DNA from: Candidatus Brachybacterium merdavium
GTDB lineage: Bacteria; Actinomycetota; Actinomycetes; Actinomycetales; Dermabacteraceae
Length of the DNA stretch: 64,000 bases
Reading direction: 5' to 3'
NCBI GenBank assembly: GCA_019118275.1
Contig: DWZH01000053.1
Coordinates: 62,001 to 126,000, forward strand
Part shown: positions 28,110 to 29,183 of the stretch, piece by piece
Numbering within the stretch: position 1 is the stretch's first letter
Layout: each line of letters starts with the position of its first letter
The notes under the pieces: generated by a model
What the model saw: only the letters and a program-made list of their open reading frames with translations
Databases searched by the model: none
What the model was told of the DNA's origin: nothing
Program-made: the position numbers and the translations under genes

Positions 28110-28556
28110 ATGACCATCGACCACGAGACCATCCGCCTCACCCGCACCCTGAGCGCCGACCGCGCGAGTGTCTGGGCCGCGTATGCCGACGCCGCCCTGC
28201 GCAGCCGGTGGAGCGTCCCCGAGGGCGAAGCCATGGTCATCGACTCCGATGACCTGCGCTCAGGAGGATCGTCCCGCTACCGCTGCGGCTCCCCCGAACT
28301 GCTCGAGTTCGTCGGTGACATCGAGTACGTGCAGGTCGCACACTCTCGGTCCGTCGTCCACACCGAGACCGTGCGCACCGGTGGAGAGCCGCTCTCCACC
28401 GGACTGGTGACCTGGACCTTCACAGAAGTCCCCGAGGGCACGGAGGTCTGCGTGACCGCCCAGGTGGCCTCCTTCGTCGGCCCGGGCATGCTCGAGGGGA
28501 CACGCAACGGGCACCGCATCGCACTCGAACAGCTGGACGGCTTCCTGCGCGGCTGA
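28110..28556 (+). CDS. SRPBCC/AHSA1-like protein
   Basis: IRLTRTLSADRASVWAAYADAALRSRWSVPEG...; AHSA1-type N-terminus. Confidence 0.82.
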   Translation: MTIDHETIRLTRTLSADRASVWAAYADAALRSRWSVPEGEAMVIDSDDLRSGGSSRYRCGSPELLEFVGDIEYVQVAHSRSVVHTETVRTGGEPLSTGLVTWTFTEVPEGTEVCVTAQVASFVGPGMLEGTRNGHRIALEQLDGFLRG

Positions 28557-28574
28557 GCTCCTGGCTTCGCTTGT

Positions 28575-28682
28575 GCACCTCGGCTCGCCTGCGTGCGCCG
28601 GTTCGTCTGCGCGCATCGGCTCGCCTGTGCACATCGGCTCGCCTGTGCGCGTCCGTTCGTCTGTGCACATCGGCGCATCTGT
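28575..28682. repeat. 18-bp direct-repeat array, six degenerate units (iteron-like)
   Basis: gcacctcggctcgcctgc, gtgcgccggttcgtctgc, gcgcatcggctcgcctgt, gcacatcggctcgcctgt, gcgcgtccgttcgtctgt, gcacatcggcgcatctgt, then partial gcacattcc. Confidence 0.88.
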
Positions 28683-28696
28683 GCACATTCCGGGGA

Positions 28697-29093
28697 TTAT
28701 CCACAGCGTTATCCACAGTCGTGGACAAATAACAGTCTTGTAGTTCCGCAGGTGCGGGAGCGCGGCGGCCATGTGGCCGCGTCGTTCGTGGACGAGTGGC
28801 TCCGTCACCGTCCACAGTGGCCCCGGATCTCAGCTTGACAGCTGATCAATAACCATCACTGCAGGCCATGGCGCCATGTCAGACAGAATTCTCTGAAGCT
28901 TGCCTTGAGAGTTCAGGCGTGCACGCGGTGGCGTGCCCGGAGTCGGCGTTCTCGGTCCTCATCAGTATCGGGCCGGGGAGCGGGTGCTCCACGGAGCTCC
29001 GCACACTGTCCGTCCACACCGGTGTCGCGCTTATCCACAATTCTAGGGCCCTCGTCCCCCACCGATCCGAATCTATCCACAAAGTTGTCCACA
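28697..29093. promoter_or_regulatory. DnaA-box cluster (origin-like or DnaA-titration locus)
   Basis: TTATCCACA at 28697-28705, 28709-28717 and 29031-29039; CGTGGACAA 28720-28728; CTATCCACA 29073-29081; TTGTCCACA 29085-29093. Confidence 0.75.
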
Positions 29094-29183
29094 GCTGGGG
29101 ATAGTCACACCCTTGTTATTCGCACCGCTGTGCACATCGGGCCCGGGCTGCACTTCCGGCCAGGCCCGTCGCCCCCTGGGCTC

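Follow-up and report, generated by a model that had tools for sequence, protein, structure and literature searches.

A conserved two-module cluster of DnaA boxes and candidate MtrA sites beside the rhomboid gene of Brachybacterium, a putative off-origin control locus

The 627-bp non-coding gap between an AHSA1-like gene and a rhomboid gene of Candidatus Brachybacterium merdavium is fairly likely, judged from its sequence and that of its relatives, to be an off-origin control locus in which two modules would bind DnaA and probably MtrA and restrain re-initiation of replication. It appears to be of a known kind, the off-origin DnaA-box cluster: a short non-coding region away from oriC contains several strong DnaA boxes, and the origin-side position is conserved in relatives. 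Its probable role is to restrain DnaA, not to initiate replication.

Organization of the gap

The window, i.e. the whole stretch of 64,000 nucleotides that was analysed, belongs to contig C17 of a draft genome in 137 contigs. Both neighbouring genes have their 3' ends at the gap, a feature overlooked in the preliminary description of this DNA, as was the dyad half of the element described here. Because both genes terminate there, the gap contains no promoter of the AHSA1-like or the rhomboid gene, and the earlier suggestion of a regulatory region for a flanking operon is unlikely. The GC content is 0.63, against about 0.71 in the surrounding window sequence. The features are:

28110-28556, + strand: AHSA1-like gene (Pfam AHSA1)
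28557-29183, no strand: non-coding gap, 627 bp, between the convergent 3' ends of the AHSA1-like and rhomboid genes
28567-28688, no strand: 18-bp tandem array (TCGCCTGTGCACATCGGC), 6.8 copies, 75% matches, period 18
28697-28705, + strand: DnaA box TTATCCACA, left module, conserved in congeners
28709-28717, + strand: second DnaA box TTATCCACA of the left module, offset by 12 bp from the first (3-bp gap), conserved in congeners
28720-28728, - strand: left module, near-box TTGTCCACG in inverted orientation; most congeners have GTGGA or GGGGA here
28728-28745, no strand: left dyad, a candidate MtrA site of sequence AATAACA-GTCT-TGTAGTT that adjoins the inverted box, near-invariant in congeners
29031-29039, + strand: DnaA box TTATCCACA, right module, conserved in congeners
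29073-29081, + strand: DnaA box variant CTATCCACA, right module, by sequence match
29085-29093, + strand: DnaA box TTGTCCACA, right module, 12 bp after the CTATCCACA box, by sequence match and congener alignment
29096-29101, - strand: inverted TCCCCA core (TGGGGA), right module, conserved in congeners
29103-29120, no strand: right dyad AGTCACA-CCCT-TGTTATT, in which GTCAC-N6-GTTAT fits the MtrA direct-repeat consensus (PMC13189361, PMC6265350)
29184-30098, - strand: rhomboid gene (Pfam Rhomboid)

The forward boxes at 28697, 28709, 29031, 29073 and 29085 and the reverse-oriented near match at 28720 lie exactly where the preliminary description had placed them, and its 18-bp direct repeats are real. 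The gap gave no match to Rfam, no sigma-70-like promoter (those of Actinobacteria may differ) and no intrinsic terminator. Its convergent 3' ends, the lack of promoter and RNA-family signals, and the independence of the element from its neighbours suggest that it acts as a DNA site.

Density of DnaA boxes

The box density, previously claimed to be very unlikely by chance, was compared with the 3.66-Mb draft genome, which contains 17 copies of TTATCCACA (reversed-pattern control, 1) and 24 of TTRTCCACA (control, 8). Since the draft holds 24 in total, the four TTRTCCACA sites within 627 bp are far beyond chance expectation (Poisson P about 6e-12 on a uniform background), as had been claimed. The whole window has one further site within one mismatch of TTATCCACA (shuffle mean 1.7). 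The many comparable clusters envisaged as a counter-argument did not appear in the one neighbour genome sampled, where at least six boxes (≤1 mismatch) per 500 bp occurred in 2 of 20 stretches of 20 kb; these two were the rhomboid-gap locus and a cluster beyond parB, about 9 kb from dnaA.

Two modules in Brachybacterium

Congeners, i.e. Brachybacterium genomes found via the rhomboid protein, were aligned (n=19) and revealed two conserved blocks. The left block reads GTTATCCACAnnGTTnTCCACAgnCGTGGACGAATGACAGACnTGTAGTTCCGCAGGT, while the right carries its boxes as GTCCACA...GTTATCCACA, followed by TCCACAnCTGGGGAnAnnCACAnnnnTGTnnTTC. Both modules close with the same succession of DnaA core, inverted core and dyad, and two modules of DnaA boxes with the dyad AAnnACA-N4-TGTnnTT are present in nearly all congeners. 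The distance between module starts is 360-389 bp in most species and 174 bp in a subgroup; two spacing values of 0 come from a single match that satisfied both module patterns. In most congeners the boxes run one way relative to rhomboid.

Outside the modules, and in the spacer that separates them, conservation is poor. In two species (L132, L138) about 2 kb is inserted between rhomboid and the intact element, and in another (L143) the element is inverted as a unit. A search for modules or dyads at the Brachybacterium dnaA and parB loci found none. The gene crgA sits elsewhere in the Brachybacterium genome, and the boxes have remained beside rhomboid.

The 18-bp array was not seen among the aligned congeners. 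It was rejected as part of the conserved element for want of a counterpart there, and on the alignment it is peripheral. Most congeners carry a single TGTGCACA-type motif near the array position, left of the left module, from which the array was possibly amplified. Its units are TGTGCACATCGG, and one copy also lies right of the right module (29128-29141). A TTCCGCAGGTCA-type motif is common to the Brachybacterium modules and to the region 3' of rhomboid in two putative Streptomyces genomes (L317, L318). A GCAGGTCA-type motif, found in the Brachybacterium spacer and two putative Streptomyces gaps, was dropped, showing no enrichment in other families.

Conservation in other Actinobacteria

The 500 bp 3' of rhomboid were compared with the 500 bp 5' of it at 109 distinct non-Brachybacterium loci, dyads being scored as TTACA-N4-TGTAA with at least 9 of 10 matches. 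The 3' regions (54 kb in total) held 104 strong DnaA boxes against 4 in the 5' regions and 9.3 in shuffles, counts that are not independent because the loci share ancestry and some repeat one family. At least one strong box was present 3' of rhomboid in 58 of the 109 loci. Dyads numbered 35 (in 31 of the 109 loci) on the 3' side and 0 on the 5' side, with 4.1 in shuffles. The boxes are conserved in the genus and across the Actinobacteria; lack of such conservation had been named earlier as grounds for abandoning the idea.

Most inspected loci with crgA nearby have rhomboid and crgA convergent, so that the gap is the promoter of neither gene. Box orientation is mixed in families other than that of Brachybacterium. 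Two putative Streptomyces genomes have three boxes in the rhomboid-crgA gap, and a search of these two gaps for the dyad found none. One off-origin cluster of S. coelicolor is reportedly named after a cosmid from the rhomboid-crgA region; given the three boxes in the putative Streptomyces gaps, the rhomboid gap may be the same locus as one of the S. coelicolor clusters. Among titles and abstracts, no literature was found that connects rhomboid or crgA with DnaA boxes in the sense of this gap.

MtrA as the candidate dyad-binding protein

Of 297 genomes of the class, 89 contain the dyad together with TCCACA (reversed control, about three). Thirty such loci were inspected: where protein matches gave an assignment, the locus was a rhomboid/crgA gap or a region upstream of dnaA, and eight of the unassigned loci, read by eye, were in most cases nrdR-nrdJ or nrdH-type promoters. 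The dyad alone (≤1 mismatch) is rare: among nine genomes, eight had no more than seven sites each and the ninth had none, with reversed controls of 0. A TCCMCA core abuts 26 of the 35 dyads in rhomboid gaps as against 0 of 18 dyads elsewhere. The left dyad is one of only two sites at ≤1 mismatch in the host genome. The other (C132:1356-1373) is found in front of a WhiB-family gene, some 17 kb away from mtrA.

Dyad sites outside the rhomboid gaps often precede NlpC/P60, CHAP, Amidase_2, SpoIID, M23 and WhiB genes, a set that resembles the MtrA regulon (PMC6265350). MtrA binds degenerate [GA]TnAC repeats with an 11-bp period (PMC13189361, PMC6265350), and dnaA, oriC and ripA are among its targets (PMC6265350, PMC5487470, PMC13189361). 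The right dyad fits this repeat in both halves and the left in one; many relatives have CTAC halves. MtrA is encoded by the host, with a match over the curated cut-off. MtrA is therefore proposed as the dyad binder, the dyad fitting the consensus with exceptions, the neighbouring genes recalling known targets and the host possessing the protein. It is most likely the regulator concerned but stays a candidate, since CTACA stands in many half-sites in place of TnAC, on which MtrA depends most. Bearing against the proposal, MtrA of M. tuberculosis and S. venezuelae acts at oriC itself (PMC5487470, PMC6265350), while the search at dnaA and the parB cluster of Brachybacterium gave neither dyad nor module.

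NrdR was considered as owner of the dyad and rejected: the dyad adjoins NrdR-like boxes in nrd promoters, yet lacks their gapless ATAT centre. In many Actinobacteria, nrdR-nrdJ and nrdH-type promoters carry the dyad and a DnaA-like core alongside NrdR-like boxes (L240, L241, L245, L252, L255, L256, L280, L286, L292, L294), and a link of dNTP supply to DnaA and MtrA through this composite is possible. One family (L250, L251) also has a dyad/DnaA-core composite some 210-230 bp ahead of dnaA.

Alternative functions

Other taxa have the dyad and DnaA core in front of nrdRJ, nrdH and dnaA, so the composite can belong to a promoter, and in the gap MtrA and DnaA might control the promoter of a small RNA or small gene that escaped annotation. 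This is unlikely in view of the negative Rfam and sigma-70-like promoter scans (with the same reservation for Actinobacteria), the poor conservation between and beyond the modules and the inversion of the element in one species.

The preliminary description had also offered a datA- or DARS-like locus. The off-origin DnaA-box site is strongly supported and the datA/DnaA-cluster type fits best; DARS is less favoured. A DARS-like locus would recharge DnaA from the ADP to the ATP form and promote initiation. Clusters that combine mixed box orientation with partner-protein sites are also typical of DARS. Such a role is nonetheless quite improbable, the datA-like off-origin clusters of S. coelicolor and B. 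subtilis being described as repressing untimely initiation (as cited in PMC4585315 and PMC10950094).

DnaA might instead form a roadblock or terminator separating the two convergent genes, as the convergent position, the failure to find an intrinsic terminator and the one-way boxes of most congeners could suggest. The intact element about 2 kb from rhomboid in two species, its inversion in another and the mixed box orientation of other families make this very improbable.

Position relative to dnaA and the origin of replication

The genes dnaA, dnaN, recF, parA and parB all lie on contig C34, in agreement with the earlier remark that dnaA and dnaN are outside the window. Sixteen congeners have rhomboid and dnaA on a single contig; the distance between the two is 77-396 kb, with rhomboid downstream of dnaA in every case and its orientation constant. 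The supposition that rhomboid and cyclophilin genes are origin-proximal holds for many Actinobacteria but not for Brachybacterium, where the locus has shifted outwards to this distance.

In one congener (G002) coding-strand bias shifts at dnaA, with no comparable shift near the rhomboid locus at +245 kb; GC skew is noisy, yet agrees. The locus is thus not the main origin. A second cluster, between parB and trxB, has eight near-boxes, a local GC content down to 0.54 and a position about 9-10 kb upstream of dnaA (host C34:40124-40380; G002 C1:3605696-3605937). It is kept, without dyads, in most congeners sampled and may be the true origin or part of it. The dnaA-dnaN gap has four near-boxes only. 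A secondary or relocated origin in the rhomboid gap, proposed earlier and suggested by its GC content, low for the genome, and its paired boxes, is scarcely credible against the strand bias and noisier skew of G002, the richer, lower-GC cluster beyond parB and the gap's lack of a recognised AT-rich unwinding element.

Proposed mechanism and relation to known systems

In the favoured reading, an off-origin locus restraining re-initiation, the two modules, about 370 bp apart, would each bind DnaA on tandem boxes and an inverted box, and a response regulator, most likely MtrA, would occupy the abutting dyad. Lying on the origin side of the chromosome, the locus would be copied early after initiation, and its new copies would take up or inactivate DnaA and so help to block re-initiation, as proposed for datA and the clusters of B. 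subtilis and S. coelicolor. By binding next to the boxes or on top of them, MtrA would adjust how far DnaA occupies them to the progress of division and wall growth. Against this reading, 51 of the 109 sampled loci have no strong box in the rhomboid 3' gap.

The B. subtilis clusters are not known to have an MtrA-like dyad or to be homologous with the Brachybacterium locus. They resemble it in their origin-side position and are described as repressing untimely initiation (Okumura et al. 2012, cited in PMC4585315). The S. coelicolor clusters (Smulczyk-Krawczyszyn et al. 2006) are likewise actinobacterial DnaA-box clusters outside oriC; the Brachybacterium locus differs in lying 77-396 kb from dnaA and in having two modules with a dyad. 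E. coli datA is also a non-coding DnaA-box cluster away from oriC, but works with IHF. In M. tuberculosis and S. venezuelae, too, MtrA and DnaA sites come together, there at oriC/dnaA (PMC5487470, PMC6265350), whereas in Brachybacterium the putative sites meet in an off-origin gap, with dyad and boxes abutting or sharing bases.

We suggest tentatively that the element is an ancient actinobacterial composite switch, a DnaA box abutting or overlapping an MtrA box (TGTGGAnAA[CT]TACA-N4-TGTA[GA]TTnTCCACA), used at nrd and dnaA promoters and, 3' of rhomboid, as a stand-alone, non-transcriptional site where MtrA would gate DnaA titration; in Brachybacterium it would have been duplicated and kept intact after its move from the origin. 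The limits on initiation in Actinobacteria are poorly known, and a defined, portable element makes the question experimentally approachable. An element with abutting DnaA and probable MtrA sites appears conserved from Nocardioides to Brachybacterium, and the composite switch, if real, would tie division and wall growth to the timing of initiation.
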